Assembly: GCA_030425385.1 (NCBI GenBank)
Contig: JAUIAH010000046.1
Span: 1 to 51,742 of the forward strand
Direction: 5' to 3'
Origin: Verrucomicrobiia bacterium
Lineage (GTDB): Bacteria > Verrucomicrobiota > Verrucomicrobiia > Verrucomicrobiales > DEV007
Length of the DNA: 51,742 nucleotides
How positions within the stretch are numbered: position 1 is the stretch's first letter; every line of letters starts with the position of its first letter. Below, piece by piece: positions 4,704-23,998 of the stretch. The notes under the pieces were generated by a model. The model made no database searches, was not told the origin of the DNA, and was given only the letters and a program-made list of their open reading frames with translations. A program made the position numbers and the translations under genes.

Positions 4704-4710
4704 GCCGCCA

Positions 4711-5317: not shown

Positions 5318-8300
5318 TTAATCCACAAAGTTGGTTTGCCGAATGCGATAGAAACCTTGGGTGGTGGGTCTCTCGGTATCAACGAAAGAGGCAGCACCAT
5401 TCGCGGCCTCGACTGTTCCGATCGATTTCCAATCCTCTGGAGCCAGGCTCGTCGAGAATTCGATGGCATAGGAGACACCGTCCTCAAGCCCTTCCCAGGA
5501 CAAGCTTGCCGCCTGGGACTCGGAGTCGAAGGTGACCAGTGGGTTCAAGGCGATGGTGTCCGCGATGGATCCGTGGGGACCAGCCTTGAGACCAGCAGCA
5601 GGTGCCACTCCAGAGAAATTGCCGATCATGATCTGGCCGATTTCCTCGGCAGACAACGCTCGATTGAACAGCGCGACATCGTCCAGGTACCCGTTCATGG
5701 CTGTGAAGAGATCCGCCCGTGAACCGATGTAGAGTGGATTGGCATTGGGCGTCCCAAAGGTGTCTGCCAGAGGTTCAGCCCAGGTGAAGACTTCCGCCCC
5801 ATTGATGTAGAACTTCAGATCACCACCCTTGGCACCCGAAATCGCGATGTGCGACCAGACATCACCGGCGACAGGAGTCGTATCGCTGAGATAGAACGCG
5901 GTATCATCCGCGCCACCCTGCTGGTGCAAGAAGTGGATCCCACGGCTACCATTCTCGATGCGGAGTTCGTAGTTCCCTGCGTGATTGGTCGCAGAATCGT
6001 CGCTCGGATTCTTGGCGAGGATACCATCCCATTCCATGTCGCCCATGGGCTTGACCCAGGCGGCGATGGTGATGCCGTCGGCAGCGTTGAGCGAATCATG
6101 GTGAGGCACGAGGACGTGCTGTTCACCACCATCGACGAACAGGGAATGGCCTCCATCATACGGGCTGTCCTCGGCGACTGATGCCCCGTTCTCAAGGGTG
6201 CCGTCATTGCCATTTCCAGAGGAGTCAGCAGCCGTGCCATCATCGAAGCGCCACAGTCCCACAAGACCCGCAATGGAATCGTCACCGCCACCAGCCCGCC
6301 CGTAGGCGGCAGCTGCCAAGTCGAATTGGCTCGCAATCTCTTCGGCTGACAAGGCACCGTCATAGATGCGGAGTTCGCCAATGCTGAGCGACCCAGCGAG
6401 ACCGGCGTTCGGCGTCACGCCATCACCTTCCCATTGGGAACCTACCAAGATTGGGAAACCCGAATGCGTGTTCAAGGTGATACCTTCCTCCGAAGTGGTA
6501 AGGGCACCGTTGGTGTAGACGCTCGTGGTGCTACCGTCTTGGGTGTAGGCAACGAAAGTCCAAATGCCCGCCTCTTCTTGGCCTTCGCCCGTGTCGGCAT
6601 CGTCTGCCGTGGCGGAGGGATCCCAACCAATGTCAGGACCATTACCCCAGTGACCTACAGCTCCGTAGGCGTTGTGGGTGCCGTGATTAAACGAAACGTT
6701 GGTGCCATCGGGACCGCCACGGCGTCCCCATGAAACAATGGTTTCTTCAGGAGCCACCACAGGGTTGTAGATCCATGCGGTGATAGAGCGGGCGCTGGCA
6801 CCTTCGATCCCGGGATCGGCCACAGGACCCACCAGCCAGTCTCCGTCACCGTCCAAGGTGACCCCTTTCGCCCCATCGATCGTCTCCACTGTTGGGTCGC
6901 CCGAAGCGACGAAATCACCCGTCAGCTCGCCGGTGTTCGTCCAGGTGGCGAGAGGGCCATCATCGAGGCCGCCGGACTGCAATTCGACGAGCAAGCGCAC
7001 TGGCTTCTCAGGCACCGAGGCTGGCGAGAGCGGATCTGTTCCCGCATCGACCTCCTCCTTATCAGAAGCGCCATCGTTGTCGGAATCGGCCGCCAAAGGA
7101 TTCGTCCCACGTCCCGCTTCATCCACATTGGTGAGGCCATCCTCATCGGGATCCCCCTCACCGGTCTGGTCGAGATTACCAAAGGTTGCTAATTCATAGT
7201 CATCTGTCAGGCCATCCTCATCGCTATCGCCACCGAAGATGAAGGTATCGCGTCCAAAGGAGGCTGCATTCTCATTGTAGAGGTGGGCCACGCTCGCATC
7301 GCTCAGGCCGGCATCGAATACACGAATCAACGCGATGCTCATCGAACCAGAAAGATTATCTACCTGCGTGCCATCCCCCTCACTCTGATTCCCCACGAGG
7401 AAGGGGAGAGGGGTCTCGCCGTCATCGGCAAACGCATGCGTGGCTGGCGTGAACGCTTCACTGTCAGACAACAAGCCATTCGTATACACGCGAGTCTCGG
7501 ATCCATCATTGGAATACGTGATATGGGTCCACATCGCGGCCTCCTGATCCCCATTCCAGCCGATGTCTGGAGCTCCCCAGTGACCAACGGCTCCAAAAGT
7601 GGCATTTGCCCCGTGGTTGAAGGAGACGTTGGATCCGTCAGGACCACCGCGGCGTCCCCAGGAGAACACCGTCTCTTCATCAGCAATTTCGGGATTGTAG
7701 ACCCACGCCTCAATTGCTCGCGGGCGTGGTCCGGTAACCGAATCGGGGGCAATGGGCCCTACTAGCCAGTCGCCTTCACCATCGAGCGTGACCGCACGCA
7801 CCCCATCGACATCGGCGATCTGCGGATCCCCTTCCGATGCAAAGTTGCCCCCAAGAGAACCGGTATTCGTCCACCCTGAAAGCGGGCCTTCACCGGGGAA
7901 ATCACGTGAATCCAAGACCACGATCGGCATGGGAACTCGGCCATACGCAGAAGCCTTCTCATTGTAGACACCCGCCACTTCCTCATCGGATAGGGCACCG
8001 TCATAGATTCGGACCAGCCCCACACTCAACGAACCCGAGAGGGCTTCGTTGATTGTCACGCCGTCTCCCTCCCACTGAGCACCCACGACGATGGGAAAGC
8101 CCGCATGGGAATTGAGCGTGATCCCTTCTTCGTTCTCCGAAAGCTCCCCGTTCGTGTAAACGCGCGTCTCGGAACCATCGTTGGTGTAGACGATGTGTGA
8201 CCAAATTCCCTGCTCCTGATCTTCACCCCACCCGATATCAGGCCCGCCCCAATGCCCCACGGCACCAAAGTCAGGATGTGACCCGTGATTGAAAGAAACG

Positions 8301-10153
8301 TTCGAGCCGTCCGGACCCCCGCGACGGCCCCAGGAAACCACCGTTTCCTCACCCGCAATTTCGGGGTTGTAGACCCAGGCCTCGATCGTTCGAGCGCTAG
8401 CTCCTTCAATGGAAGGGACCGAGGCAGGGCCGATCAACCAGTCACCTTCCCCATCGAGAGTCACCCCCTTGGCACCAGCGATCTCCTCTACCATGGGGTC
8501 GCCCGAGGCCGCGAAGGATCCTCCAAGAGACCCATCGTTGGTCCAGGCACTGATCGCGCCAGCTTCAAGGTCGGCTGCATCCAACACGACTAAAGCAGCG
8601 GCCTCAGCTTGCGGCACACTCGCGGGATCGGTCGGATCGGAACCGCCAGCCACTTCGGTGGCATCGTCCACGCCGTCATTATCGGTGTCAGGATGCCGCA
8701 AATTGGTTCCATTGGCGGCCTCATCGGCATTGGAAAGTCCGTCGCCATCGAGATCGCCTGCCCCATCTTGGGCCAAATTCCCAAACATCGCCATCTCCAC
8801 CTCATCTGGCAGATTATCGCCATCCTTATCTCCTCCGAACTCAAAGCTCTCCCGACCGTAACCCGCCGCCGAAGCGTTGTAGTTCGCGTGGATATCGTCT
8901 CCAGAAAGCGCAGCGGCATACACCTGAATGGAGCTGATACTCAGCGAGCCCGACAACCCATTGGACTGCGTCCCATCACCATCGTTCTGATTCCCCACCA
9001 CGAATGGCAGCGGTGTCTCATTGTCATTCGCCAACGTGTGTGAATTCAGCACGGAGGCTTCAGAATCTGCCAAGATACCGTTCACATAGACCCGTGATTC
9101 CGAGCCATCATGGGTGTAAGCCACATGGGTCCAAATGTCTGGCTCCTGCCGCCCATTCCAACCAATGTCTGGGCCACCCCAGTGTCCCACCGCACCAAAG
9201 TCCGTGCTGGAACCGTGATTGAAGGAAACATTTGATCCTTCCGGACCGCCACGACGCCCCCAGGCGAAGACCGTCTCTTCGTTATCAATCGTGAAATTGT
9301 GAATCCAGGCCTCGATCGTGCGCGGATTGGAACCGGCAACCGCATCCGGCGCAATTGGCCCCACGAACCAGTCCTCATCCCCATCGAGGTGGACGGCATG
9401 CACCTGATCCACGGGCTTTACTTCTGGATCACCAGAAGCCTCAAATGTGCCCCCCAGGCTGCCCGTGTTCTCCCAACTCACAATCGCTCCCGCATCGAGG
9501 CCGCTCGCGTGCAGGGAAACGACCGGGATATCCGTCACGGTCAGCCGGATATTGTCGAAATGAGAACGCCCACTACCGGAATTGTCCCCAATCACCACGA
9601 CGATCGTACCCGTAGGCGGCGTCTCTCCGGTATCGAAGGTGGCGGTCACATCGCCAAACTGAGATTCGGCCAAATTGAATGCGCTGTAGGTGGTGCTCGC
9701 TGCGGCAAGGATCGCATCGTCGGCGAGGAGTCCGGCCGTATTCGCCGAAGCGGGCGCAGGATCATTGCTCAGGCCAATCACACTGCCATTGGTATCGTTG
9801 GTGAAACTAGCGTTCCGGTTTCCCACAGCCACCGTGAGGCGGTAGCGCTTGTGCGCCTCCCAGGCCACGCCCGTGTCCTGGGTCAGATAGTAGCCCGTTG
9901 CCATGCCGACGTGGTTGCCGCCATCCGCGGCAAATCCAGGAATCACCTCCAAGAAGGCATCCCCGCTACCATTGCCGTCGCGGCCGACCCACTGGGTCCC
10001 CCCTTCGGTCGACTCCAGGTTGTTCGTCCAGGTGTTGCCACCAAAGTCGGCGCTCTCAAAACTGTGGTGATTCACCGCAATGGGAGCTGCCATGAGAGAG
10101 GCAGGAGCCAAAGCAAGAGCCAACACTAATGTCCGTAAAGGGGTCTTAATCAT
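5318..10153 (-). CDS. Giant secreted multi-LamG protein with thrombospondin type 3 repeats
   Basis: An exported protein of about 1611 residues; signal peptide MIKTPLRTLVLALALAPASLMA (start 10153; an earlier Met at 10177 adds only a non-signal extension). The first ~200 residues are a galactose-binding-like domain (FESADFGGNTW...). Five ConA-like LamG domains follow. Four are near-copies marked by SWGRRGGPDGSNVSFNHG and GAVGHWGGPDIGW; the fifth is canonical (LVGLWRFDDGTAADSSGNGNDG). Calcium-binding TSP3-like segments (DKDGDNLPDEVE, DLDGDGLSNADE, DTDNDGVDD) follow the first and third LamG. The tail (SLSWEGLEDGVSYAIEFSTS...FYRIRQ) is a verrucomicrobial fibronectin-like ending without PEP-CTERM. 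Likely a glycan-binding adhesin; specific ligand unknown. Confidence 0.9.
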   Translation of the reverse strand: MIKTPLRTLVLALALAPASLMAAPIAVNHHSFESADFGGNTWTNNLESTEGGTQWVGRDGNGSGDAFLEVIPGFAADGGNHVGMATGYYLTQDTGVAWEAHKRYRLTVAVGNRNASFTNDTNGSVIGLSNDPAPASANTAGLLADDAILAAASTTYSAFNLAESQFGDVTATFDTGETPPTGTIVVVIGDNSGSGRSHFDNIRLTVTDIPVVSLHASGLDAGAIVSWENTGSLGGTFEASGDPEVKPVDQVHAVHLDGDEDWFVGPIAPDAVAGSNPRTIEAWIHNFTIDNEETVFAWGRRGGPEGSNVSFNHGSSTDFGAVGHWGGPDIGWNGRQEPDIWTHVAYTHDGSESRVYVNGILADSEASVLNSHTLANDNETPLPFVVGNQNDGDGTQSNGLSGSLSISSIQVYAAALSGDDIHANYNASAAGYGRESFEFGGDKDGDNLPDEVEMAMFGNLAQDGAGDLDGDGLSNADEAANGTNLRHPDTDNDGVDDATEVAGGSDPTDPASVPQAEAAALVVLDAADLEAGAISAWTNDGSLGGSFAASGDPMVEEIAGAKGVTLDGEGDWLIGPASVPSIEGASARTIEAWVYNPEIAGEETVVSWGRRGGPDGSNVSFNHGSHPDFGAVGHWGGPDIGWGEDQEQGIWSHIVYTNDGSETRVYTNGELSENEEGITLNSHAGFPIVVGAQWEGDGVTINEALSGSLSVGLVRIYDGALSDEEVAGVYNEKASAYGRVPMPIVVLDSRDFPGEGPLSGWTNTGSLGGNFASEGDPQIADVDGVRAVTLDGEGDWLVGPIAPDSVTGPRPRAIEAWVYNPEIADEETVFSWGRRGGPDGSNVSFNHGANATFGAVGHWGAPDIGWNGDQEAAMWTHITYSNDGSETRVYTNGLLSDSEAFTPATHAFADDGETPLPFLVGNQSEGDGTQVDNLSGSMSIALIRVFDAGLSDASVAHLYNENAASFGRDTFIFGGDSDEDGLTDDYELATFGNLDQTGEGDPDEDGLTNVDEAGRGTNPLAADSDNDGASDKEEVDAGTDPLSPASVPEKPVRLLVELQSGGLDDGPLATWTNTGELTGDFVASGDPTVETIDGAKGVTLDGDGDWLVGPVADPGIEGASARSITAWIYNPVVAPEETIVSWGRRGGPDGTNVSFNHGTHNAYGAVGHWGNGPDIGWDPSATADDADTGEGQEEAGIWTFVAYTQDGSTTSVYTNGALTTSEEGITLNTHSGFPILVGSQWEGDGVTPNAGLAGSLSIGELRIYDGALSAEEIASQFDLAAAAYGRAGGGDDSIAGLVGLWRFDDGTAADSSGNGNDGTLENGASVAEDSPYDGGHSLFVDGGEQHVLVPHHDSLNAADGITIAAWVKPMGDMEWDGILAKNPSDDSATNHAGNYELRIENGSRGIHFLHQQGGADDTAFYLSDTTPVAGDVWSHIAISGAKGGDLKFYINGAEVFTWAEPLADTFGTPNANPLYIGSRADLFTAMNGYLDDVALFNRALSAEEIGQIMIGNFSGVAPAAGLKAGPHGSIADTIALNPLVTFDSESQAASLSWEGLEDGVSYAIEFSTSLAPEDWKSIGTVEAANGAASFVDTERPTTQGFYRIRQTNFVD
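6270..9520 (-). repeat. Tandem duplication of a ~1.6-kb LamG-TSP3-LamG coding unit
   Basis: Within the LamG gene the domains alternate between two subtypes. Subtype A has LPFVVGNQNDGDGTQ; subtype B has GITLNSHAGFPIVVGAQWEGDG. The order is A, TSP3, B, A, TSP3, B, so a unit of about 530 codons (roughly 9520-7930 and 7929-6270) has been duplicated as a block. The copies remain very similar at DNA level around SWGRRGGPDGSN, a substrate for recombination. Confidence 0.8.
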
Positions 10154-10295
10154 AGTCCAGTGCAAACGGGTTACCACGCGTGACGGCCATTGTTAGGGTG
10201 CCAGCCCGTGACTACGCAAGCCTATTCTTGAGAAATGCTAAGTTTCTTTGGGCCCGCTCAAAGCGTCTGACTCAAACTCTGGCAAATTGCCTCCA

Positions 10296-13200
10296 TCAGG
10301 GCTTCTCCAGACCCGGAACACGATAGTCCGGTCGATCGGGTCCATTGAGTCGGAAGAAGAAAGCGCGATCTCCGGCCAAGACATCGAGATCCTCGACGTC
10401 TGGGAGATCGGGGCCCATTTCCGTCCAGAACTGCCAATCGGATCCAGCATCCAGGAGAAAGTAGCCGCGATAACCCTCCACACCCCACTCGCCATCACCT
10501 TGCCAGAGGTGGACTTGATCCGCCTGTTCGGCATCCCGGCTGCCCTGAAAGCCATCGGCGACGGTCATGCCTCGGTCTTCAAGACTCATAGCAATGGGTC
10601 GCGGTGAGGCGAGGAGATGGTGACCGTTGACGAGCGGTTGGGCGAATGCTCCCTCCCGCACGGATCCCTGGTAGGTGAGCGCGAGCGGTTGCGCCTCGGC
10701 AGGACGCTCGAGAAAGGCACCGACCCCTGGAGGAATCACCAAACCGTCTGCGGAAAGCAACGCTTCGTCATCTTGGGCCACCCAGTGGAGACGATCCTCA
10801 GCCTGGAGAACAAAGTAGCTGTCGTAGCCTTCTCCGTGATAGAAATGAAGTTGATCCGCGCCTGCGGGATCGGTCGCTCCGAGCAAGGTGTCCACGGGGT
10901 AGGCAGAACCCAAGGTCCAATGCGGGCGCACGACGACCTGGGCATGAAACCAATCCGCCGTTCCAGGAATCGCCTCCAGCGTGTTATGGGGAGCCGCCCA
11001 ATCGAGCCGCACGACAGTGTCTGTGGTGCCGGTCACATCGATGTCTATCCGATGGCCTGTCAGCGTGCCTGATACGAACTCTATATAATAAGCATGCTCA
11101 GAAGAGAGCAGGCTGCCGAGGCCATGCCCCCCCAGAGTCAGACCTTCCTCTGTCCATCCTTGAACCTGGCTCGTGAAGACAGCAGGTTGATTCAATGCCA
11201 GGCCATGGGTTTGGAATCCTGGCCCGAAGGTGGTCGCTTTCCACCCCATGATGGGCGTGGTGGAGACGCTCCCCCAACCTTGATGGGTGATGCGCAGCCG
11301 AGCGAATCCGTGTTCACGCGATAGCCCGGGCTGCAACTCCAGGTGAGGGAAGGTCAGGCGCTCCTGCCGATACGCTATCACTTCCACTGTCTCTGCGGTC
11401 TCATAAAGGGGTGTCCAGGTTTCCAGATCACCGCTCACTTCCACCTCGTAGCGAACCCCACTGAGACGCGCAGGGCGTTCGTAAGAAAGCGTGATGGTTT
11501 CTCCAGCCAACCCGAGATCAATCTCGAAACCGGGGTCGCCTGGTTGGGCCTCGTATGGGTTCCGCCCAAGCGCATACTCCGCCGTCAGATCCAACAAATC
11601 GCCATCACTGTTATTATCACCATAAACATTCGTGTTCGTCAGCGTGCCGTCTGACCCGGTGCTCACCTGCTGAGCCACGCGAAGGCGTTCTCCTGGACCA
11701 AAGACTTCCACTTCCGCCAAGGCGAGATAGTTGGATCCTGACAGTTGCACGCGCACATAGCGCCCCATCCGATTCACGTCTACGCGCTGCGTCGCTGAGG
11801 GCGCGGTGCTGAAGGCGAAATCACTGACGCCCGATTGAGCCATGGTGGCTGCGAGGTCTGTCGAGGCGAACGGCACCTCGCTCACAAAGACATGATAGGC
11901 ACTGAGCCACTCGTCCCCACAACAATCCGTGCGATTCCACACATTGAGATGACTGATGGCTTGCACGGCTCCCAGATCCACTTCCCACCACGCATGGATG
12001 TCTAATTCCGTATGCGTGACGCTTCCATTGCGCCAATCGCCATCGGTGTTGCCGTCGATCGCGAGATCCGCCGTGAATGCGGTTCCAAACACACTGGATT
12101 GGGTAGCCGTCACGCCTCCTTGATCCACCAGATTCACGTAGGTGTTTCCATCATCTAACTCTTGTACCGTCACGTCCTGATAAAATGCGTCCAACGCATC
12201 ATCGGAAGTCGACCACCCTTCAGGCAGGAGCCGGATCGCCCAAAGATGGCCATCTCCCAAGCGCGCATCACTCGCCACTCCGAGTGTGATCACCTCATTC
12301 CCAAAGCCCGCTTCCACTGTGCGGATGTCACTAGCAATGGTGCTCCAGTTATCATTGGCATCGTGCAACCAGATACCGATCTCACGGCGCTGCGTCGTTT
12401 CATACTCGATGAGAATGGAGGTCGTCCCGGCAGCTTGCACTGTCGGTACCGCGTTCACACTGACAAACACATCACGGGTGGGATCGCCGCCTCCAGAGCC
12501 GCGCTCGACTCGCGCATCTGCATAGTCGGCATCAAGGGCATCGTCGGCACTCTCCCAATCCACTGGCAGCAAACGCAGTGCCCACACATAACCGTCTCCG
12601 ACACGTGCGTCTGCCAGAACGGGCATGGTAAAGGTGTGTGTCCCAAAGCCGCGCTCCACCACCGTCGACCCCTGGGCGATGGTGAACCAGCCATTCAGGG
12701 AATCGTGCAGCCACACGCGTAATTCGCGCGTCTCTGTGACCTCGTAGGGCACTTCAAGAGTCACCGAACCCGGACTGTTCACTAGCCCTGGGAAGTTGAC
12801 ACCGCCTAACTGATCTGCCGTGGGCTCCCCTCCACCACCGCTCGATCCCGTTTGCACGGTCACCGGAAGATAGTCCGCACTCAATGCATCCTCAGCCGAA
12901 CTCCAACCCTGCGGCAGCAAACGGACGACCCAAAGATAACCATCTCCCACTCGGGCATCCCCCGCGATGGTGAGATTGAAGGTATGCGATCCGATACCTG
13001 GCGATAATGTCAGGTTATCCGTAGCGACCGTGCGCCAGCCACTATTTGAATCCTGCACCCAGATCCAGAGTTCATGCGCTGCCGTCGTTTCATAGTCCAC
13101 GGTTGCCACCACGCTCTGCCCTTGCTGAACGACTGCCGGAGCGTCGATCGCTGTGATCAAGTCATTCTCCGCTGGATTGACGGCATTCACCGTCCAGGTG

Positions 13201-16200
13201 AAACTCACTGAGTCACTGCCACCGACGCCATCACTTACCGTGACGGTCACGTTGGTGGTTCCCGCCGCTTGCAAGACACCCGAGATCACCCCACTGTTAG
13301 GATCGATCACGAGTCCTGCCGGGAGCGAGGTCGAGCTAAAGGTGAGCGGATCATCATTCGGATCCGCCGCCATCAAAGCCAGGTTGGCAGACGATCCTTC
13401 CTCGCCCACCTGGTTGCCAGGATTCTCAAGTGACGGCGCACCATTGCTAGGGGCCGTCGATTCTCCTCCGTCAATCTGCAAGAGATAGGCGACCAGGCGA
13501 TCGATCTCCTCTCCAGTCACGGACAAGCCATTGTGAGCAGCAATGGCCTCGGCCAGCGAGCCGGCAGAGCCATCATGCAGATACGGCGCTCCATCCCAGA
13601 GGCCGCGGAGTGTCGGCGTGTCAATGCCAGTCAATGCGCCACCCAAACGCCCGCCACTAGATGCCTTGATGGTTCCAATCTCGTGCAGGCTGTCAGGCCC
13701 ACTATCCGTGAAACGGGACCCAGCATGGCAGCTAGCACAATCCTTGGCTCGAAACAGGTCACGTCCAGCCATGCCTTCACTTGTGAGCGCGCCATTGGCA
13801 TCGCGATAGGGGCTTGCTGGCGTTTCTGTGAGAGAAGACACATAAGCGGCCAGGGCATCAAGCGCTGCGCTGCGCCCGGCATTGGCCAGGCCCAAGGGCG
13901 GATGCGGATCACCATCCGTGATGAGCCCATTGCCAAGCGCCAGCGTGCGGATCTGATTCTCGAAATCATGCACCTCATCAAAGTTGGCCGACCAGTGGAG
14001 AGGGCCGTGGCCCACGCCGCCGCGACCACGAAGGTCGATCGTGTTACGCAACCCTTCACCAAATCCTGTCATGTCCCAGATGCGCCCATCGTGCCCGCCG
14101 TCGTTGTGGCAACTGGCACAGGAAATGTAGTCTTCGCGTGAGAGGCGATCATCGTTGGCATCATAGAAGAGCTGTTTCCCTAACAAAACCTGTGAACTCA
14201 ACTGTTCATTGCCCACCGCATTGTAGACCTCCAATGATCCCACAACATCGGAGCCCTGATCGATCACCGCGCTGATATCGTGAACGCTCACCGTTCGGCT
14301 CATGAAATTGTGCACAAACAAGCGCTTCCCATCTTGCGACAGCGCTAGTCCCTGTGGGGCGCGCCCGGCGTCAAAGCGAAAGAGTTCCTGCTTCCCATAC
14401 GCGTCTACCACGGCCACTTCACGACTCCCCTCAAGAGCCACAAAGACGTAGAGGCCATTGGGGCCAAAGATCGCCGTGCTCGGAACTGCGGCGTCATCGT
14501 GATCGATCCGGCCTTCCGCATCCTCCATTTCGGCCACCAAATCGAGCCGCGAAGTCACAGCCCTCACCGAATTCTCATGCGTCAATCCCCGTCCGTCACG
14601 CAAGGTGCCGCGCAAGACATTGTCCTGTTTGGAGGCCACCCATGCCATGTCTCCAGCGGGCGAGAGCGCTGCCGGTCCAAGGTAGTTCGGGATCCCGCGA
14701 CCACCGCCGCCGGAGTCCGGTTCGTCGCTATGCGCAAGCGTGATCGTCTTGAGCACGTCCAAGGGCGCCGTTCCTAGCACCATCACATCGCCACCTCCAT
14801 TTGCCACCTCGGGAAACGCGGTGGCTTCGCCCGGCAAGCGCGGGGTAATGAATCGTGACACATACACTTTGGAACCATCGCTCGAAACGGAGAGGTGTCG
14901 CGGGGTGGTTCCTACCGAAACAAGGCCTAACTCTGTCCCACTCGCGTCCAACTGTAGCACTTGACCTAACATTTCCAAGGCCACGTAAGCCCGCGTCCCT
15001 TGAGGATCGAAGGCGATCCCATGCGGTTGTGAGCCGCGAGGCAAGAGAAGGTCTGGGAGTCGCGTCAAATCACTCGTTTGGATACGTACAAGAGTCGCAT
15101 CCGCCTTGACCGTCACCCACACGGTGCCTGAGACCGCGTGCCAGGCAAGGCTGCGTGGGCTGGCGCCGACGGCGATCTCTGCCACCTTCGCGTGCGTCAC
15201 CGCATCAAAGACACTCACCGTATCATTGTCAGGATTCACATTCCACACCCGGTCATTTCCTCCATCGCGTGATTCGTAGATCACGCTCTGAGAAAGGGTG
15301 GGACGCTCTGCCAGGAGTTCTGGATAGACATTCTGGACAAAGGCTGTGGACACTTCCGCGCCGGAATCGTCCGTGGCCGTGAATCGGACCAGGAAACGGC
15401 CTGGATACTCGTAAGTATGGCTAAACGTTGGCGACGACGACCAGGCGCTATCGCCACTGCCATCACCTACATTCCAACGGTACCGCGGATTGGTTCCACC
15501 ACTGGGCGATGCCGTGAAGGTGATCGCAACACCCAAGGCCGAGGCACTAGGAATCATGTCAGGAACAGAAAGCTCTGGATTGACCGTCCAGGCGAAGCTC
15601 ATGGTGCCCGTCTGTTGCCCGTCACTGGCACTCACCCCTACTTGGAAGACGCCCACCTCATTGAGGGTGCCTGAAATGGCACCCGTGGCGGCATCCAGTG
15701 TGAGCCCCCCGGGCAATCCGCTCGCCGCGAAAGTGACAGGATCGCTATCGGCATCTGTGGCACTCAAGTTGACGTCCACGGTTTGCCCGATCGTGTGGGC
15801 CTGGTCCGCAAGGGCAGCGATCTCTGGCGCGCGGTTGGGCTGATAGGGTGAAAGGTAGTCACCCACCATCACGCTCAACCCAGCATCACCCGGAATCTGC
15901 CAGGCAAGATTGACGTGATCCCCACCCGTTCCCTGTTTGTGCAGGATCTCGAGGTAGTAACGTTGTCCTCCCACCAGGGCAATCTCCGCCGATTGTTGTT
16001 CTGGAAACTTCGTCCACTCATTCACACCAGACCAGGAAGGGACCGAGGCCACTTCCGCACTATTGTTAGGACTAGCATCCGTGCTCAAGAGAAGGCGCCC
16101 TTCGTCATCGCTGCTCAGCCAGAAGCGGTAGGATCCCGTCACGGGCGCGTGCACGTAGCCGCGGAATCGGCTGCCATAGTTGGTAGCTGAATTCACACCC

Positions 16201-18980
16201 ACTGGAAAACTGGAGACCAGCTCGGAGCCCGTCGGGTTGAAGGGATAATCCCCATTTCCTAACAGGTCAGCCAGGGTCGAACCCGTCACGCCCGACCACC
16301 ATTCACGCAGAATGGTGCCATCCCCTTGTCCTGGCAAACGCACCACCCATTGAAAGGCAGCCGAAGCCGTGAGGCCATTCTGATCCTCGACGGTGACGCT
16401 GGGCGTGAAGATCCCTTCCCCGGCAAACGTTCCCGTGATCTGTCCGGTGGACGGCTGGATTCCAACTCCGGCAGGCAGCCCTTGGGCAGAGAATGTTAGG
16501 GTCGATGACGCTGGAGCCGTCACCGGGACTGTCAGCGCTACGGCTTGCCCCACGGTGTCCACGCGATCTGCAAGTGATCCTATTTGGGGACCGCCTGTGG
16601 TGAGTCGCAGAAAGACCTCTTCAGCATTGCCATCCGCGGCCCAGATCCGTCTTGCGGGAGATCCCACTGGCATGCCCACCACTCCACTGGGAATGCCCCC
16701 ATAGTCGGTTGCCGACGCCCAAGCGCCATCATTGAAACCCGGCTGATTCCACTCACTCGGCGCGGAGGTTGCCACTTTCCAGGAGGCATCGGTGACCACC
16801 CGCTCCCCTGCAATCATGAAATCGCCCAGTGCAAAGAAGCCGCCCCCTGTGTTGCAGGCACGGATGGCCAGCACGGTGCTCGCACCCGTCTCAAAACTGA
16901 CTTGTGAGACCTGATTCCATTCCGTCCCGATACTCACAAGATCCCCATTCACATACAATTCAAAGACATCATCGACGGCGACCGCTGCAGAGCCTGACGG
17001 ATTCTCAAAGCGCAGATTCTTCTGAGGAATGATCTGTTTGGGCGTTCCCGGTCCCGACCATCGCAATTCGGCGACAGCACCACTCGCCCTCTCGTAAAAC
17101 TCCATGCGCAAAGGCACGGGCACGCCAGCAGTGAGCGCAATGCTTCCACTGTTCTCCGTCGGCGCGTGATCGGTCCAGTTGCTCACCAAGGACTGGTTGT
17201 TCACCCACAAGCGCACGCCATCATCTGACTTGGTGTAGAAGGTGAAGGTGCCCGTGTAATCTGGGACGACCCACCCATCCCAGCGGATCGAGAAATTGTC
17301 ATTGCCAACTTCGGCGGCATCTGGCCCGAGTGTCCCATAGTTGTAGTCGATCCGGTGATCCACGCGTTCGAGTTGCTTGTTAGCCAAGGAAACACCGTTG
17401 TGATAGTCAGCTTCCAATCCAGCACTGGGGCTCGTTCCCGCCTTGGTCACTTGAACGATCTTCGCCTTGGAGTGCACGCCGTTGGCATCGAGGCCAAAGA
17501 TCATCCAGTACCCTGGGACCATCACATTCACATTGGGATGCGCCACCAGTTGGTAAGTCCCGGTCGACGTCTCGGAGAATGGCAGACGCAGATACCGCTG
17601 ATCCGTGGACAAGCCGTGCGTTGTGGCGAGGAGTCGAATAGCGGCGAACTTCTTCAAATTAGCAGTGCCTTCGATCTCGAAAACGGAACCACACGACACC
17701 ACTTCAGGCGCAGTGTTGAGCACGGGACGGTTCGCCAACTGGCCACTCGCATTGTAGAGGGAAGGCGGCGTGAAGATTTCGCCATTCTGTTGGTTAGGAT
17801 TGGGATAACCATTCCCACCTGCAAAGACGCGCCCATCGGCTAACAAAAGCCCCACGGAATGGTAATTGCGAGGCCGCGCCATGTCTGCCACTTCACGCCA
17901 TGTATTGGTGCGAGGATTCCAGATCTCGGGTGTCAGGATGGTTCCCTCATCGTTGAACTTCTTGCCTGAGGTGTTCCCACCCACGATCATGACTTCCCCG
18001 CTGGGAAGGACCACAGCATTGGAGAAGCGTCGCGGATAGCGCATCGACGCCACCTGTTGTACCGTGGGAGGGTTGGTATTGAGATCTACCGTGTAGGCTT
18101 TGTTCGTGCTGCCTCCACTGGTGGTCGCCGCTCCTCCGGCAATCAGGATCTTGCCAGAGTCATACATGGTGACGCCAGCGTGCTTAGGATAGTGATTGCT
18201 CGGCACATTCAGGCCAGCAGAAGTGCGCGATCCATTGCCGTCAGGATCCACCCAGTGCATGGTTTCGGTAGGACCAAAGTGAAAGAGCTTTCCGTTAGGG
18301 GCCACAAACACATACGGCCACCAACGGGATTCGAATCCCGCGGCACCTGAGACGGGCTGCCAATTGATTCCCGTGAGCTTACGCCAGGTTTGGGTTGTGT
18401 CAGAGAAACGCTCCGCCGTGTTCTCGCCACCACTGCCAGCCACCGTGAAGACATCGCCATCCGGTAAGGCCACCGAGGTCGTGTACCAACGACGATCCTC
18501 CATGTCATCGACCCGCTTCCATTCATTCGATCGGAAATCGAACACACTGCTATGCTCGATGGTATACCGCCCTCCTACCGTTTGCACCATCCCATCGGCA
18601 CGCATGACGAGATGCGCGCAGAACATTTCGTGATTGAGATAGAGGCTTTCGTCAAAGCGATTCGTTTCGGGATCGTAGATGGTCCAGTAAGTCTGCGTCT
18701 TGGTGCCGGGCCACGACCCGCGCTCCTGGCCGGAGAATGTGAGGATCTTGCCATTGGGAAGACTGGCGGCCGAGACGGGCACATGCGGCCAGTTGATGAC
18801 ACCACTCCAGCGCCCATCCTGGTCAGATGCCCCGGGCTCAGCCGGGGTGCCCGTGAATCCAGGCAAAAGCGCGGCCGCGTCTGCCCAGAAGGCATCATCA
18901 TCATCGTGATTCTCACCCGCCCAGAGAGCGTTGAGACAGACAAATGGTAGGATCAGGAATCGTGTGCGGCGAGCCATCAT
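10296..18980 (-). CDS. Giant galactose-oxidase-like copper radical oxidase / PA14 / YVTN / di-heme peroxidase / F5-8C mosaic
   Basis: An exported 2894-residue protein. Residues 50-515 form a galactose-oxidase/glyoxal-oxidase kelch propeller plus DUF1929-type domain. The five copper-radical residues can be aligned: Cys121 (MFC), Tyr166 (RRWYTTS), Tyr373-His374 (RNYHSVGLLLADGRVF) and His455 (LATTHGLSTDQR). Then come PA14 (~520-660 and ~885-1045), putative-Ig/He_PIG domains, PKD (~1140-1215), a YVTN-type propeller (~1230-1570) and a di-heme cytochrome c peroxidase domain with C1621-ASCH and C1748-ASCH. The C-terminal third has three ~95-residue repeats (~1945-2240), an F5/8-type-C domain (NRTDCCGDEW) and a TIGR02597-like end. 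The start overlaps the upstream stop by four bases (ATGA), indicating translational coupling to the MbnP-MbnH-like gene. The Trp290-type stacking residue of galactose oxidase is not evident, so the substrate may differ. Confidence 0.88.
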   Translation of the reverse strand: MMARRTRFLILPFVCLNALWAGENHDDDDAFWADAAALLPGFTGTPAEPGASDQDGRWSGVINWPHVPVSAASLPNGKILTFSGQERGSWPGTKTQTYWTIYDPETNRFDESLYLNHEMFCAHLVMRADGMVQTVGGRYTIEHSSVFDFRSNEWKRVDDMEDRRWYTTSVALPDGDVFTVAGSGGENTAERFSDTTQTWRKLTGINWQPVSGAAGFESRWWPYVFVAPNGKLFHFGPTETMHWVDPDGNGSRTSAGLNVPSNHYPKHAGVTMYDSGKILIAGGAATTSGGSTNKAYTVDLNTNPPTVQQVASMRYPRRFSNAVVLPSGEVMIVGGNTSGKKFNDEGTILTPEIWNPRTNTWREVADMARPRNYHSVGLLLADGRVFAGGNGYPNPNQQNGEIFTPPSLYNASGQLANRPVLNTAPEVVSCGSVFEIEGTANLKKFAAIRLLATTHGLSTDQRYLRLPFSETSTGTYQLVAHPNVNVMVPGYWMIFGLDANGVHSKAKIVQVTKAGTSPSAGLEADYHNGVSLANKQLERVDHRIDYNYGTLGPDAAEVGNDNFSIRWDGWVVPDYTGTFTFYTKSDDGVRLWVNNQSLVSNWTDHAPTENSGSIALTAGVPVPLRMEFYERASGAVAELRWSGPGTPKQIIPQKNLRFENPSGSAAVAVDDVFELYVNGDLVSIGTEWNQVSQVSFETGASTVLAIRACNTGGGFFALGDFMIAGERVVTDASWKVATSAPSEWNQPGFNDGAWASATDYGGIPSGVVGMPVGSPARRIWAADGNAEEVFLRLTTGGPQIGSLADRVDTVGQAVALTVPVTAPASSTLTFSAQGLPAGVGIQPSTGQITGTFAGEGIFTPSVTVEDQNGLTASAAFQWVVRLPGQGDGTILREWWSGVTGSTLADLLGNGDYPFNPTGSELVSSFPVGVNSATNYGSRFRGYVHAPVTGSYRFWLSSDDEGRLLLSTDASPNNSAEVASVPSWSGVNEWTKFPEQQSAEIALVGGQRYYLEILHKQGTGGDHVNLAWQIPGDAGLSVMVGDYLSPYQPNRAPEIAALADQAHTIGQTVDVNLSATDADSDPVTFAASGLPGGLTLDAATGAISGTLNEVGVFQVGVSASDGQQTGTMSFAWTVNPELSVPDMIPSASALGVAITFTASPSGGTNPRYRWNVGDGSGDSAWSSSPTFSHTYEYPGRFLVRFTATDDSGAEVSTAFVQNVYPELLAERPTLSQSVIYESRDGGNDRVWNVNPDNDTVSVFDAVTHAKVAEIAVGASPRSLAWHAVSGTVWVTVKADATLVRIQTSDLTRLPDLLLPRGSQPHGIAFDPQGTRAYVALEMLGQVLQLDASGTELGLVSVGTTPRHLSVSSDGSKVYVSRFITPRLPGEATAFPEVANGGGDVMVLGTAPLDVLKTITLAHSDEPDSGGGGRGIPNYLGPAALSPAGDMAWVASKQDNVLRGTLRDGRGLTHENSVRAVTSRLDLVAEMEDAEGRIDHDDAAVPSTAIFGPNGLYVFVALEGSREVAVVDAYGKQELFRFDAGRAPQGLALSQDGKRLFVHNFMSRTVSVHDISAVIDQGSDVVGSLEVYNAVGNEQLSSQVLLGKQLFYDANDDRLSREDYISCASCHNDGGHDGRIWDMTGFGEGLRNTIDLRGRGGVGHGPLHWSANFDEVHDFENQIRTLALGNGLITDGDPHPPLGLANAGRSAALDALAAYVSSLTETPASPYRDANGALTSEGMAGRDLFRAKDCASCHAGSRFTDSGPDSLHEIGTIKASSGGRLGGALTGIDTPTLRGLWDGAPYLHDGSAGSLAEAIAAHNGLSVTGEEIDRLVAYLLQIDGGESTAPSNGAPSLENPGNQVGEEGSSANLALMAADPNDDPLTFSSTSLPAGLVIDPNSGVISGVLQAAGTTNVTVTVSDGVGGSDSVSFTWTVNAVNPAENDLITAIDAPAVVQQGQSVVATVDYETTAAHELWIWVQDSNSGWRTVATDNLTLSPGIGSHTFNLTIAGDARVGDGYLWVVRLLPQGWSSAEDALSADYLPVTVQTGSSGGGGEPTADQLGGVNFPGLVNSPGSVTLEVPYEVTETRELRVWLHDSLNGWFTIAQGSTVVERGFGTHTFTMPVLADARVGDGYVWALRLLPVDWESADDALDADYADARVERGSGGGDPTRDVFVSVNAVPTVQAAGTTSILIEYETTQRREIGIWLHDANDNWSTIASDIRTVEAGFGNEVITLGVASDARLGDGHLWAIRLLPEGWSTSDDALDAFYQDVTVQELDDGNTYVNLVDQGGVTATQSSVFGTAFTADLAIDGNTDGDWRNGSVTHTELDIHAWWEVDLGAVQAISHLNVWNRTDCCGDEWLSAYHVFVSEVPFASTDLAATMAQSGVSDFAFSTAPSATQRVDVNRMGRYVRVQLSGSNYLALAEVEVFGPGERLRVAQQVSTGSDGTLTNTNVYGDNNSDGDLLDLTAEYALGRNPYEAQPGDPGFEIDLGLAGETITLSYERPARLSGVRYEVEVSGDLETWTPLYETAETVEVIAYRQERLTFPHLELQPGLSREHGFARLRITHQGWGSVSTTPIMGWKATTFGPGFQTHGLALNQPAVFTSQVQGWTEEGLTLGGHGLGSLLSSEHAYYIEFVSGTLTGHRIDIDVTGTTDTVVRLDWAAPHNTLEAIPGTADWFHAQVVVRPHWTLGSAYPVDTLLGATDPAGADQLHFYHGEGYDSYFVLQAEDRLHWVAQDDEALLSADGLVIPPGVGAFLERPAEAQPLALTYQGSVREGAFAQPLVNGHHLLASPRPIAMSLEDRGMTVADGFQGSRDAEQADQVHLWQGDGEWGVEGYRGYFLLDAGSDWQFWTEMGPDLPDVEDLDVLAGDRAFFFRLNGPDRPDYRVPGLEKP

Positions 18981-20734
18981 GGCGAATGTTGGGTGTTAAG
19001 CGTGGTGAAAGCGTGTGGTGCGGTTTGCAGAAAGCGTTCGTCTGTGAGGGTGTGCAGGAAGGCGATCAAGGCAGCGCGGTCGTCGGCGCTCAGTTCGAGC
19101 CCCAGTTCAGGATGCTTGGCCAAGTTTGGATCCAAGGTTTCGGAGCGCTTCACCCCTTGAGCGTAGTGATCGATCACCTCTTCCAACGTCGCAAAGCGCC
19201 CATCGTGCATGTAGGGCCCTGTCACGGCCACATTGCGCAAAGAAGGCGTGGCGAATTTCCCCTCGTCTGCCGCCTCTCCTGTCACTTTCCCTAATCCGAT
19301 ATCCTCGAATGAGGCGTCGAGCCCATTGTTGGCAAAGCCATGGTTGGTGAAGAGGTTTCCACTGTGGCAATGGAAACAATCGGCCCCGTAGAGTCCATTC
19401 TTGGGATCGTATTCCGTGACGAATAGCTGCAGACCGCGTTGCTCTTGTGGCGTCAGTCTCTCTTCACCGCGAGCGGCTCGATCGAATTTCGCCTCCTGGC
19501 TGACCAGCGTGAGGAGAAATTGCTCCAGCGCCTTGGCGAGACTCTCCGGAGTGATCGCGCGGCTACCGAAGGCCGCGGCAAACATGGCAGGATAGTGATC
19601 GTCTTGGCCTAACTGAGTCATCACCACTTCAAGAGAGGCATTCATTTCCAAGGGGTCTTGGATCGGGTGCAAGACTTGATCCCTGAGAGTGGATACTCGT
19701 CCGTCCCAGAAGAAGCGCTGTTTCCAGGCGAGATTGAACAACGGCATGGCATTGCGCTTCCCCTCGTGCCCTTCCACACCCACACTGAGTTGTTTGTCAG
19801 GATCGGTAAAGGCATGCGAGCGCTGATGACAACTCGCGCAGGACTGCTCGTGCCCCTTGGACAATCGCACATCGTGGAACAGGCGCTCTCCTAACTGCAC
19901 GCCTTCGCGCGTGAGAGGATTGTCCGCAGGCAGCGCTACGGTTGGAAAGCGCTTCGTGATGCGTAATAGGTGAGGGCTTCCATAAGCAGGAACGGCTTGC
20001 TCCAGGGACTCCATCTCATGATAGCGATCGGATCGTGCTTCTCGAAAAGCGAAGGCCGCGCGAAGAGCCGTGGTCAGTTTCTCTGGGATCGGGTCGCCCT
20101 CACGCGAATGCGTTGAGTTGCCATCCCGATCAAAGTCAAAGGCGATTAGTTTCCCTACATCCATGGAAAGATCGATCGAGCGATGCCCCGGCAAGGTGAC
20201 TTGCAAAGGCACCACGACTTCAACGGCATTTCTCGCATTCGCTAAATGATAGGAATATCCTAACATGCCTCCTTTGCGAGACTGATACCGCCCTTCAGCC
20301 GCGAGGTAGATGTAGCCACCTTGCCATCCCCAATGCAGCCCATTGACTTCAGGATGCAGGGCATGGTCCGGTGGATAGCCATTGGGATCGCTGGCATCCA
20401 CTTCTGCGGGCAGCCCGATGGTGAACCGGACGGCGTCATAGGTACCCTTGGGAGGTTTTCCCAAAGTAACCGTATCGCGCCCCTGCCGCGCACTGACATA
20501 GCCATAACGGTCACCAGCCTCAACCCAGTCTCCCGTGTCCGCACGGCGCAGCGCAAACTGGGACAAGAGATAGTCGAGCCGATGGAGGGCAACTCGCTGA
20601 CCCGCGGCGTTGGCCAATCGAAACTCATCGAAGGTGAGCGGGTCTTCGCCTACCAGATGGATGAGTCGCAGTTGCACCTCCCCACGGCTCCCCAAGGGGG
20701 CCAAGCAGCAGAGGACAAGCAGTAGGAAGCGCAC
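18977..20734 (-). CDS. MbnP-like copper-binding domain fused to MbnH/MauG-like di-heme cytochrome c peroxidase
   Basis: An exported 585-residue protein (signal MRFLLLVLCCLAPLGSRG). Residues ~20-235 match the MbnP copper-protein pattern: HRLDYLLSQF, then HPEVNGLHWGWQGGYIYLAAEG, then ending DFDRDGN. The conserved W-x-W (Trp135, Trp137) corresponds to the region where MbnP proteins carry the Trp converted to kynurenine. Residues ~250-570 are a MauG/MbnH-type peroxidase with two heme sites, C299-ASCH and C453-FHCH, plus the usual FNLAWKQRFFWDGR and GPYMHDGRFATLEEV motifs. In described systems MbnP and MbnH are separate partners; here they appear as one chain. It is the first gene of a minus-strand operon and overlaps the copper radical oxidase gene by four bases. 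Confidence 0.87.
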   Translation of the reverse strand: MRFLLLVLCCLAPLGSRGEVQLRLIHLVGEDPLTFDEFRLANAAGQRVALHRLDYLLSQFALRRADTGDWVEAGDRYGYVSARQGRDTVTLGKPPKGTYDAVRFTIGLPAEVDASDPNGYPPDHALHPEVNGLHWGWQGGYIYLAAEGRYQSRKGGMLGYSYHLANARNAVEVVVPLQVTLPGHRSIDLSMDVGKLIAFDFDRDGNSTHSREGDPIPEKLTTALRAAFAFREARSDRYHEMESLEQAVPAYGSPHLLRITKRFPTVALPADNPLTREGVQLGERLFHDVRLSKGHEQSCASCHQRSHAFTDPDKQLSVGVEGHEGKRNAMPLFNLAWKQRFFWDGRVSTLRDQVLHPIQDPLEMNASLEVVMTQLGQDDHYPAMFAAAFGSRAITPESLAKALEQFLLTLVSQEAKFDRAARGEERLTPQEQRGLQLFVTEYDPKNGLYGADCFHCHSGNLFTNHGFANNGLDASFEDIGLGKVTGEAADEGKFATPSLRNVAVTGPYMHDGRFATLEEVIDHYAQGVKRSETLDPNLAKHPELGLELSADDRAALIAFLHTLTDERFLQTAPHAFTTLNTQHSP

Positions 20735-20755
20735 GCGTTTGCATACTTTCTCTCC

Positions 20756-20786
20756 GTATAATTTCCATACTTTTAGACTCTTTCAA
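20756..20786 (-). promoter_or_regulatory. Possible promoter for the MbnP-MbnH / oxidase operon
   Basis: Minus strand: TTGAAA (complement of 20781-20786) as -35, and TTATAC (20756-20761) as -10, with a long spacer of 19 bases. It lies 22 bases upstream of the ATG at 20734. The same TTGAAA/TTTCAA hexamer can serve the divergent desulfurase promoter. Matches are imperfect. Confidence 0.35.
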
Positions 20787-20811
20787 CGCTAGTATTCGCA
20801 GAAATTATAAT
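20781..20811 (+). promoter_or_regulatory. Possible promoter for the cysteine desulfurase gene
   Basis: A consensus -10 TATAAT at 20806-20811, with a weak -35 (TTTCAA or TTCAAC at 20781-20787) 18-19 bases upstream. Transcription would begin near 20818 and give a ~70-base leader before ATG 20891. An upstream ATG at 20810 lies inside this -10 and is therefore unlikely to be the start. Confidence 0.4.
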
Positions 20812-22088: not shown

Positions 22089-23771
22089 TCACTTGATCAC
22101 GACAAGGCGATAGAACCGCCTGACCACGTTCCCAATCTCAGGATCTAGCAGGGTCTTGATTTGATCATTGAGAAGGCCATCACCGAGCGGCTTCCAATCG
22201 GGATTGAGCAAATCAGGAGACGCCTCGATCCGCACTTTCTGATCTGGAACAGGATCCCATTCCAAATTGAGAGTAGATGCTCCAATCAACTCGAAATCAA
22301 TATCCGGCACTGCCCGTGCCACCCGAAAGCCCAAGTCCCGCCGGATCAAGACAGGAAAGCCAATAAACCGATAACTGCTGCTCAGTTGAAAGTCGCGCAG
22401 CTTCCAACTGGCACCACGCATCACGCGCTGCTCCGTGCCAGCGACGGATTCGATCCATTCCTGCATGTTGGCGGTCATATTCGCGGCCCCATAACCACTG
22501 AGACTCCCACCACTCCCAACGGTCGTCGCCATCCCCTGGCGCTCGGTATCATCCAACTGCCCATCATTATCGAGATCCCAGACCGCCGTTCCCAGGGCGA
22601 GTCGCGGCTCGTCGTCGGTATCATCGAACGTCGCCACATTCAGACCAGGGTTGTCGACATTCCCGTCCATATCGGCCGTCGCTGCTGTCGGCACCGTATT
22701 GGACCCTGTCGCGTAACGGCGATACTTCGCAATGCTCGATTGATAATAGGCGGCTTTGAACCATTCGTCCTCATTCGGTAAGAAATACTTGGCACCAGGC
22801 GAGCGCCGAACGGTGTTGAGGGTGATGGCTCCCGAATCCGTGAGATCGTAAGCGCCGTCTTCGGTGGTTTCGGGACTCATGTCGCGATCGGCGGGCGTGG
22901 GACGGCCGTTGTGGAGCCAATTACAGAATCGCAGCGCGGCCCAGAAGGACACCCAATTGACGGGCTTATTCCCCATATCTTCTTTCACCGAGTAAGTGAA
23001 CGGTGGATTGCTTCCATGGCGCTCGATGCCCCCAGTCAGCGAAGCCATCATTTGGGGGACATACACGACGCGATCTTCATCGTTTCCACCAATCGCGTTC
23101 AGAAAAGCCACATACTGATCATTCGTCACCTCGAACTTACCCATTTGAAAAGCCCGATCCACGCGCCCCACGACAGGAGGCTGCCCAATGCCGGTATTCG
23201 TCACGGGCGTGTTCCCCGGACTGCCCACGGTGACGAACTCCATAAACTCCGCCGCCTGAATAAAGACCATTAGGAAACGCTGCTTCGCGTCTGAAGACAA
23301 AGGATGATCAATATCCCCCACCGTGAACTCGTCGCCATCCTCTGACAGAAGCCCCTGCCGACTCGAAAAGGCACCGTTCGCCTCTCTGCGAAAGAGTAGT
23401 TGGCCACTCTCAAGATCACCAACGCTGTCCGCTCCCCTCACAAAGTAGACGAGGTCCTCGGCATCAGGTTGAATGGGAAACGTCACCGTGAGGTAATCCT
23501 CGCCGTCATGTTCCTGCACGGCGCCGTCCATGGGGCAGGGATCATATTTCTGAGGATCGGTGCCCATGGCATACTCTCTCAAATTGGTGAGGGTATCCTC
23601 ATCTGGATCTTCCAGCATTTGCGCGATGGGTAAATCCGCGTCGCCAAACTCATCTTCCGCCCACTCCTCGTAGGTCAAGGCCCATGAAGTCGATAAAGCC
23701 ATTAAACTGGCTAGACTAACTCTAAGGCAAATTATGGCTACTGGATGCTTTTGTGGTGAGCACCGGTACAT
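22089..23771 (-). CDS. Secreted FGE-fold (SUMF1-like) protein with calcium-binding N-terminal segment
   Basis: A 560-residue exported protein. The start at 23771 puts the hydrophobic segment AIICLRVSLASLMALSTSWA near the N-terminus as signal; an extension to 23816 is possible. After the signal comes a TSP3-like calcium motif (DPDEDTLTNLREYAMGTDP), a beta-sandwich linker, and a formylglycine-generating-enzyme fold from about residue 200: MGKFEVTNDQYVAFLNAIGG, RFCNWLHNGRPT, YFLPNEDEWFKAAYY, GFRVAR. The paired catalytic cysteines of true FGE are not seen (LSSSYRF and GFRVAR carry Ser/Val), so sulfatase maturation is unlikely and a structural or ligand-binding role is more probable. The tail (NLEWDPVPDQKVRIEASPDL...FYRLV) is a verrucomicrobial-type ending. 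Confidence 0.85.
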   Translation of the reverse strand: MYRCSPQKHPVAIICLRVSLASLMALSTSWALTYEEWAEDEFGDADLPIAQMLEDPDEDTLTNLREYAMGTDPQKYDPCPMDGAVQEHDGEDYLTVTFPIQPDAEDLVYFVRGADSVGDLESGQLLFRREANGAFSSRQGLLSEDGDEFTVGDIDHPLSSDAKQRFLMVFIQAAEFMEFVTVGSPGNTPVTNTGIGQPPVVGRVDRAFQMGKFEVTNDQYVAFLNAIGGNDEDRVVYVPQMMASLTGGIERHGSNPPFTYSVKEDMGNKPVNWVSFWAALRFCNWLHNGRPTPADRDMSPETTEDGAYDLTDSGAITLNTVRRSPGAKYFLPNEDEWFKAAYYQSSIAKYRRYATGSNTVPTAATADMDGNVDNPGLNVATFDDTDDEPRLALGTAVWDLDNDGQLDDTERQGMATTVGSGGSLSGYGAANMTANMQEWIESVAGTEQRVMRGASWKLRDFQLSSSYRFIGFPVLIRRDLGFRVARAVPDIDFELIGASTLNLEWDPVPDQKVRIEASPDLLNPDWKPLGDGLLNDQIKTLLDPEIGNVVRRFYRLVVIK

Positions 23772-23998
23772 GAAACGACAGTTGGTTTGGGGTAGATGAA
23801 TAGAAGGGGTTGTCACATCGCACTTCGTGGTCGACTAGGGGGAGTCAACTCGTGCTGATCACTGAAATAAGAGGCAGAAGGTAGGGAGATTTGCAAGGCG
23901 AATTAGCTTTCTCAACGAAACGTTCGCGACCGAACTTCTCGCTGGATGCCCCTGGCCGTCAGTTGACGACTCAACCCCAATGACACAACAGTTAAGAA

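Follow-up and report, generated by a model that had tools for sequence, protein, structure and literature searches.

The window analysed here, a stretch of 51,742 nucleotides (nt) from contig JAUIAH010000046.1 (assembly GCA_030425385.1) of a Verrucomicrobiia bacterium (DEV007), carries two overlapping genes on the minus strand, which we call A and B. A check of the open reading frames (ORFs) placed both genes at their stated coordinates. Gene A (18977..20734, minus strand) has a GTG start and encodes 585 amino acids (aa), which join an MbnP domain to a di-heme domain that is MbnH/MauG-like. Gene B (10296..18980, minus strand) encodes a predicted multidomain copper radical oxidase of 2894 aa with a propeller and a di-heme module. 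By eye, both proteins begin with a signal-peptide-like N-terminus, which is hydrophobic in A, and each translation contains two CxxCH motifs. The stop codon of A and the start codon of B share an ATGA at 18977..18980 (minus strand), and the same 4-bp overlap is found in 16 of 25 B-linked pairs, the window included. An earlier note, made from the letters of this DNA alone, had reported the overlap and had described A as an MbnP protein of copper-binding type with its own di-heme domain and B as a protein of copper-oxidase type with another; the overlap is indeed present, and the domain matches agree with both descriptions.

The MbnP domain of A spans residues 18-197 (20144..20683, minus strand) and matches Pfam PF20243 with 90 bits against a cut-off of 27. 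The di-heme domain follows at residues 269-574 (19013..19930, minus strand), with CxxCH motifs at 299-303 and 453-457, a Trp at 343 and a Tyr at the axial position 524. Its CCP_MauG match reaches 187 bits over residues 277-425, and its best NCBIfam match is the MbnH model TIGR04039, with 248.7 bits over 269-574, under the cut-off of 363. MbnH 6e1c is the top match by sequence and by structure, followed in the structural comparison by MauG chains. In an alignment with chain 1iqc, Tyr524 falls on Met258, a position that we take to be that of the axial ligand of the second heme. This Tyr is kept in all 57 A proteins with letters there, and W343 in 58 of 58. By its residues, A has the MauG-type pattern of a Tyr at the axial position of the second heme together with an inter-heme Trp, and its di-heme domain could perform oxidative protein chemistry; the 6e1c match and the aligned Tyr524 are the reasons for proposing an MbnH-like role. 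Within and just beyond the MbnP domain, W135 (20330-20332), H163 (20246-20248) and H209 (20108-20110, just past the domain boundary; all minus strand) are candidates for a kynurenine precursor and two copper ligands, and all three residues are kept in 58 of 58 A proteins (L082 excluded from the count). They would fit a site of the CorA/MopE type, in which two His and a kynurenine hold the copper (PMC3912023; this and the other papers below are cited from excerpts). The AlphaFold model of A has a mean pLDDT of 70 and a pTM of 0.45, and its relative domain placement is unreliable. Two further arrangements of the fusion were seen in other genomes. In L082 (9363-14303), a frame of 1646 aa opens with the MbnP-MbnH fusion and continues for approximately 1100 further residues. 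In another branch, represented by L061 (4575-7646), L055 and L065, the gene after an A-type fusion encodes a protein of approximately 1020 aa, which in L061 carries YHYH and sulfatase domains.

Pfam and NCBIfam matches order the domains of B as kelch propeller with E-set, PA14, Ig-like (He_PIG) and PKD units, YVTN-type propeller, di-heme domain, repeats and F5/8-type C domain; the oxidase and di-heme domains together take up about a quarter of its length. The galactose-oxidase-like kelch propeller and E-set occupy residues 20-515 (17436..18923, minus strand), where PF13964 (kelch) and PF09118 (galactose-oxidase-like E-set) both score over their cut-offs, and a phmmer comparison of B with solved galactose oxidase gave an E-value of 5e-83. 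C121, Y166, Y373, H374 and H455 align with the galactose oxidase motifs. We take these five residues to be the copper-radical site, comprising the Cys-Tyr cofactor pair, the axial Tyr and the two His ligands. They are unchanged in all 70 kelch domains compared, a set that includes two domains outside di-heme-bearing ORFs (that of L165 and the second one of L102). Judged by residues and kelch/E-set architecture, B has the pattern of a copper radical oxidase of the galactose oxidase/GlxA type. B is not GlxA itself, as its score against NF052501 (156.5 bits) lies far under the cut-off of 800. Downstream in the protein, the better of two PA14 stretches covers residues 521-653 (17022..17420) and the F5/8-type C domain residues 2292-2415 (11736..12107), both Pfam matches on the minus strand.

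The YVTN-type propeller of B (residues ~1226-1585, 14226..15305, minus strand) leads directly into the di-heme domain (residues 1586-1850, 13431..14225, minus strand), which carries CxxCH motifs at 1621-1625 and 1748-1752, an inter-heme-type Trp at 1663 and a His at 1816. The CCP_MauG match of this domain is 36 bits against a cut-off of 25.6. The alignment of this domain comprised 40 sequences, namely the window and 39 of 77 rows, and all 40 keep both CxxCH motifs, W1663 and H1816. His1816 of B aligns with Tyr524 of A, and the MauG-type Tyr is absent from the B domain in all 40. This difference at the axial position, Tyr in A versus His in B, led us to reject the idea that the two di-heme domains do the same job. 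MauG in which that axial Tyr is replaced by His has reportedly lost its modifying chemistry. The variant has been made and crystallised (3orv), and because of this parallel and the His at the Tyr position, we read the B domain as a putative electron-transfer or peroxidase unit that serves the oxidase domain of B itself.

The structural model of the B propeller and di-heme module has a pLDDT of 85 and a pTM of 0.90, confidence falling to pLDDT 42 in the heme part, which is modelled less well than the propeller. Hydrazine synthase beta is its second-best PDB match by E-value, among approximately 1800 PDB chains that match the propeller model at E 0.001, and for the di-heme sequence, hydrazine synthase gamma and bacterial cytochrome c peroxidases are matches of about the same quality. 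Like hydrazine synthase beta-gamma (5c2v), B combines a propeller with a MauG-like di-heme domain; unlike B, 5c2v has no oxidase domain, and B scores 51.6 bits against NF052342, far under the cut-off of 1250. The relation is kinship of fold, not membership. Weaker B-like di-heme domains (about 290-365 bits) were also seen in G007, G010, G020, G021 and other genomes, in frames of 1500-2200 aa.

The two genes form a conserved unit within one lineage of Verrucomicrobia. In a sample of 286 genomes drawn evenly from the class, with the oxidase domain called at E 1e-100 so that more distant oxidases are uncounted, MbnP occurs in 49 genomes and the B oxidase domain in 10. All 10 B-bearing genomes encode MbnP directly upstream of the oxidase domain, in an open frame of 580-630 aa that shares its contig and strand. 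Co-occurrence alone gives a hypergeometric p of 1e-8, uncorrected for kinship. In the reverse direction, B adjoins 10 of the 54 MbnP matches above cut-off. A strong match to the B di-heme domain (>390 bits) was found in 16 of 95 relatives, and every one of these 16 also has an A match with an E-value of at most 1e-100; such a match is present in 27 of the other 79 (43 of 95 overall, counting as present G003 and G009, where A is a contig-end fragment). Moreover, in a tree of 59 A proteins, from which two duplicate rows had been dropped, 25 have B within 3 kb downstream and 34 do not; four of the latter (L039, L046, L075 and L081) have 834 to 2033 bp downstream, and a more distant B is possible there. 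The B-linked label changes only 3 times on this tree, compared with a mean of 19 after shuffling, and none of 500 shuffles was as low. This fits one gain of B linkage and two or three losses, with 80-94% support for several of the branches concerned. The A protein of the window is 46-54% identical to its aligned B-linked relatives, and thus the linkage is old. Chance overlap or an annotation artefact is ruled out, since the pair and its 4-bp overlap recur in diverged genomes. The proposal that the two genes belong together is therefore borne out by the class sample and the tree, and the pairing is not unique to this genome. Brevifollis gellanilyticus NBRC 108608 (locus L114) is a named strain that also carries the pair.

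B reaches much farther than the pair. A similarity-ranked set, comprising the best 80 of at least 568 confirmed relatives and biased to close relatives, consists mostly of records from metagenome assemblies, with phylum labels taken from the record titles. It contains 81 B rows in 80 loci, of which 70 hold oxidase and di-heme in one ORF and 1 (L165) holds them in two neighbouring genes; 2 rows lack the oxidase domain (L108 and L150), and 8 are cut off. Stated for the relatives that allow a judgement, the one-ORF arrangement is found in 70 of 72. The 70 one-ORF proteins come from seven phyla: Verrucomicrobiota, Pseudomonadota, Chloroflexota, Acidobacteriota, Deinococcota, Planctomycetota and Rhodothermota. 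L165 (3471-12079) shows a natural split of B, with A, the oxidase part and the propeller/di-heme part following one another as separate genes.

The place beside B is filled by different proteins in different lineages. Full flanks were available for 52 of the 81 B rows, among them 25 from Pseudomonadota. In 11 of these 25, a SCO1/SenC copper chaperone is encoded within 1 kb of B on the same strand, and all 15 SCO1 matches across the 80 loci lie less than 1 kb from B, with none farther away in the stretches examined. A MauG-like di-heme protein stands beside B in 5 of the 25, in L088 on the opposite strand; the other four (L138, L153, L154 and L155) are YtkA-like–CCP_MauG fusions. SCO1, YtkA-CCP and MbnP-MbnH are therefore different proteins in the same slot. 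The element they share appears to be a protein of copper type, a MauG-like heme protein or both, with copper binding by YtkA presumed. Because SCO1 or MauG-like proteins hold this slot elsewhere, A most likely has the corresponding role of copper loading and cofactor maturation, and the copper-delivery role that the earlier note had suggested for A fits these neighbours in many Pseudomonadota. The A–B pairing is lineage-specific. Of the two genes, B has the wider distribution and is the greater surprise, and A is one of several partners at that place.

Described systems offer close functional precedents, so the statement that no described system has this combination was too strong. In Streptomyces lividans, the cross-linked form of GlxA requires Sco and the DtpA peroxidase at low copper, and DtpA consumes the H2O2 made by GlxA (PMC4736821). 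Like the A–B pair, that system brings together a copper radical oxidase, a copper chaperone and a heme peroxidase using the H2O2 of the oxidase. Unlike the pair, it relies on a Sco chaperone and a DyP peroxidase from separate genes, whereas A fuses a putative copper-binding domain with a di-heme domain and B carries a di-heme domain of its own. Similarly, mtoX, the gene of a copper-containing methanethiol oxidase, sits with SCO1/senC and mauG, and SCO1 and MauG are fused in some species (PMC5739008). There too, a copper enzyme proposed to make H2O2 lies beside a chaperone and a MauG-like protein that are sometimes fused together, but MtoX belongs to the SBP56 family and is not a copper radical oxidase, and its chaperone is SCO1, not MbnP. 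In fungi, a copper radical oxidase is activated by the heme peroxidase with which it is paired, and copper radical oxidases in vitro need a peroxidase for full activity (PMC9770985). This alcohol oxidase-peroxidase tandem likewise pairs a copper radical oxidase gene with that of an activating heme peroxidase; it differs in that the peroxidase is of class II and encoded by a separate, head-to-head gene, and the excerpts of PMC9770985 mention no copper-binding partner domain. By analogy with these three systems, A probably loads or matures B.

The closest relatives of A itself are found in other surroundings. In MbnP-MbnH, MopE-SACCP and CorA-CorB, a di-heme protein of MauG-like type neighbours a partner protein, which in the case of MopE and CorA binds copper (PMC3621798, PMC3912023). 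In the excerpts, these pairs are encoded by separate genes and occur together with methanobactin operons or TonB receptors, or at the surface of methanotrophs, whereas A is one polypeptide coupled to an oxidase. Excerpts of the literature matches listed contain no description of an MbnP-MbnH fusion or of a heme-fused galactose oxidase, which is weak evidence.

We favour the reading that B is a heme-equipped copper radical oxidase and that A is its dedicated copper loader and maturation factor, and we put its probability at roughly 0.55. B would be a secreted copper radical oxidase whose propeller and di-heme module, on the same chain, resemble hydrazine synthase beta-gamma. The MbnP domain of A would bind copper and pass it to the oxidase domain of B. 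The di-heme domain of A may use H2O2 to make the MbnP copper site, presumably by converting Trp135 to kynurenine, and/or may oxidise copper during loading. Copper loading by A would then let the Tyr166-Cys121 cofactor of B form through its predicted cross-link. The di-heme domain of B, with an invariant His and no Tyr, would be a built-in redox partner rather than a protein-modifying MauG; it may re-oxidise the copper site to the active radical state and remove the H2O2 of turnover, if electrons flow in that direction. The further idea of the earlier note, that H2O2 from the oxidase drives the di-heme domains, is a hypothesis.

Several observations weigh against this reading. A stands beside genes other than B in 34 of the 59 cases on the tree, and A is thus not specific to oxidases. 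The earlier concern that MbnP-MbnH fusions might lie beside unrelated genes is thereby justified in part, but 31 of these 34 A proteins fall outside the smallest mostly B-linked part of the tree. W135, H163 and H209 are equally conserved in A proteins without B nearby, the copper ligands of A are assigned from conservation, and the model TIGR04052 (MbnP_like_WxW) gives A 29.5 bits, under its cut-off of 140. Moreover, A adjoins B in only 10 of the 21 full-flank Verrucomicrobiota loci, or in 11 when L165 is added by eye, so that the link looks stricter in the even class sample than in the similarity-ranked set. One of these 21 rows is L150, which lacks the oxidase domain and whose genome lacks MbnP. 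Of the Verrucomicrobia genomes in which a kelch-bearing B lacks an adjoining A or is itself cut off, nine were searched, and MbnP is present in all nine, outside the stretch examined and at a fusion-like length of 591-625 aa; one of these assemblies, UBA7681, also carries a linked pair (L117 and L162). The genome search for MbnP covered 50 of the 80 loci, namely those without an adjoining A, leaving aside 7 further loci from outside Verrucomicrobia and several cut-off ones from within it. Of the 38 genomes searched that carry a B-type gene and lie outside Verrucomicrobia, 33 gave no MbnP match, so that the idea of a self-contained system is not supported. Neither SCO1 nor a di-heme neighbour was found in 9 of the 25 full-flank Pseudomonadota loci, or in any of the 6 full-flank loci of other phyla.

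Different roles for the two proteins have to be weighed against the loader and maturation role of A. B might be a cytochrome-coupled copper radical dehydrogenase, whose electrons would exit via the propeller and di-heme module to a soluble cytochrome with little H2O2 formed, A being a copper loader only; we consider this somewhat unlikely. Built-in cytochromes provide other oxidoreductases with an outlet for electrons, which counts in favour of such a route, and a small cytochrome c gene lies directly after B in L146, as does a one-CxxCH ORF with no Pfam match in L135. His1816 also suggests a bis-His second heme, as in the electron-transfer heme gamma-II of hydrazine synthase (PMC12758564). 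However, small one-CxxCH ORFs adjoin B only in L135 and L146 among the loci tabulated, and the inter-heme-type Trp1663 and the MauG-like sequence of B are features of peroxidases. Studied copper radical oxidases, moreover, use O2, which counts against a dehydrogenase.

Alternatively, the di-heme domain of A could act on B as MauG acts on its substrate, generating the Tyr-Cys cross-link or another modified residue, with the MbnP part as a docking platform. A keeps the MauG/MbnH-type Tyr524 and W343, MbnH 6e1c leads its matches and is followed structurally by MauG chains, and MauG-like neighbours recur beside B; this mode of action is nevertheless unlikely, as copper itself starts the cross-link in fungal galactose oxidase (PMC4736821) and the MbnP Trp and His are invariant even where B is absent. 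It is quite improbable, finally, that A is a cellular copper scavenger, as proposed for MopE and CorA, which shares an operon with B through a common response to copper limitation. A touches or nearly touches B in every B-bearing genome of the class sample and the ATGA is conserved, which is more than shared regulation needs, and SCO1 occupies the same slot in many Pseudomonadota. On the side of scavenging, the MopE and CorA genes are lowered by copper and their products are surface-associated or secreted (PMC3912023, PMC3621798), and A adjoins many other genes.

The reading of A as loader and maturation factor bears on the question of how copper radical oxidases acquire their copper in the cell and remain in the active radical state. 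Two overlapping genes here supply an oxidase, a heme partner and a putative copper/heme protein, and in other phyla the second slot is filled by unrelated copper-type or MauG-like proteins; through this shared slot logic, "copper chaperone plus heme peroxidase" becomes a testable rule. The pair also points to a widespread bacterial enzyme family. We propose tentatively, at slightly less than even odds, that B represents an undescribed class of heme-fused copper radical oxidases in at least seven phyla, in which the same-chain di-heme gates the radical or takes electrons. Different lineages would independently have added fusion maturases of copper type and MauG-like type (MbnP-MbnH in Verrucomicrobia, YtkA-CCP in Gammaproteobacteria), paralleling Sco plus DtpA and SCO1-MauG.

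A divergent intergenic region of 75 bp (20735..20809) separates A from an aminotransferase class-V gene. It contains a promoter-like site on the minus strand (20786-20758), upstream of A, and a perfect 9+9 inverted repeat (TATAATTTC/GAAATTATA) within 20757-20809 that reads like two facing -10 boxes. No copper operator was recognised in 20735-20809. On the other side of the pair, 118 bp after B and on the same strand, lies a gene for a protein of 1619 aa that carries TSP3 repeats and five Laminin_G_3 stretches (5318-10177). No terminator-like site was found in these 118 bp, and the Laminin_G_3 gene could share an operon with B. Farther along, 4711-5289 encodes a small protein with a PEP-CTERM motif and 2409-4745 an FG-GAP/UnbV_ASPIC repeat protein. 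At 22089-23816 and 23999-27601, the window encodes two neighbouring FGE-sulfatase (formylglycine-generating-enzyme-like) proteins, one of which carries four MBG_2 stretches.

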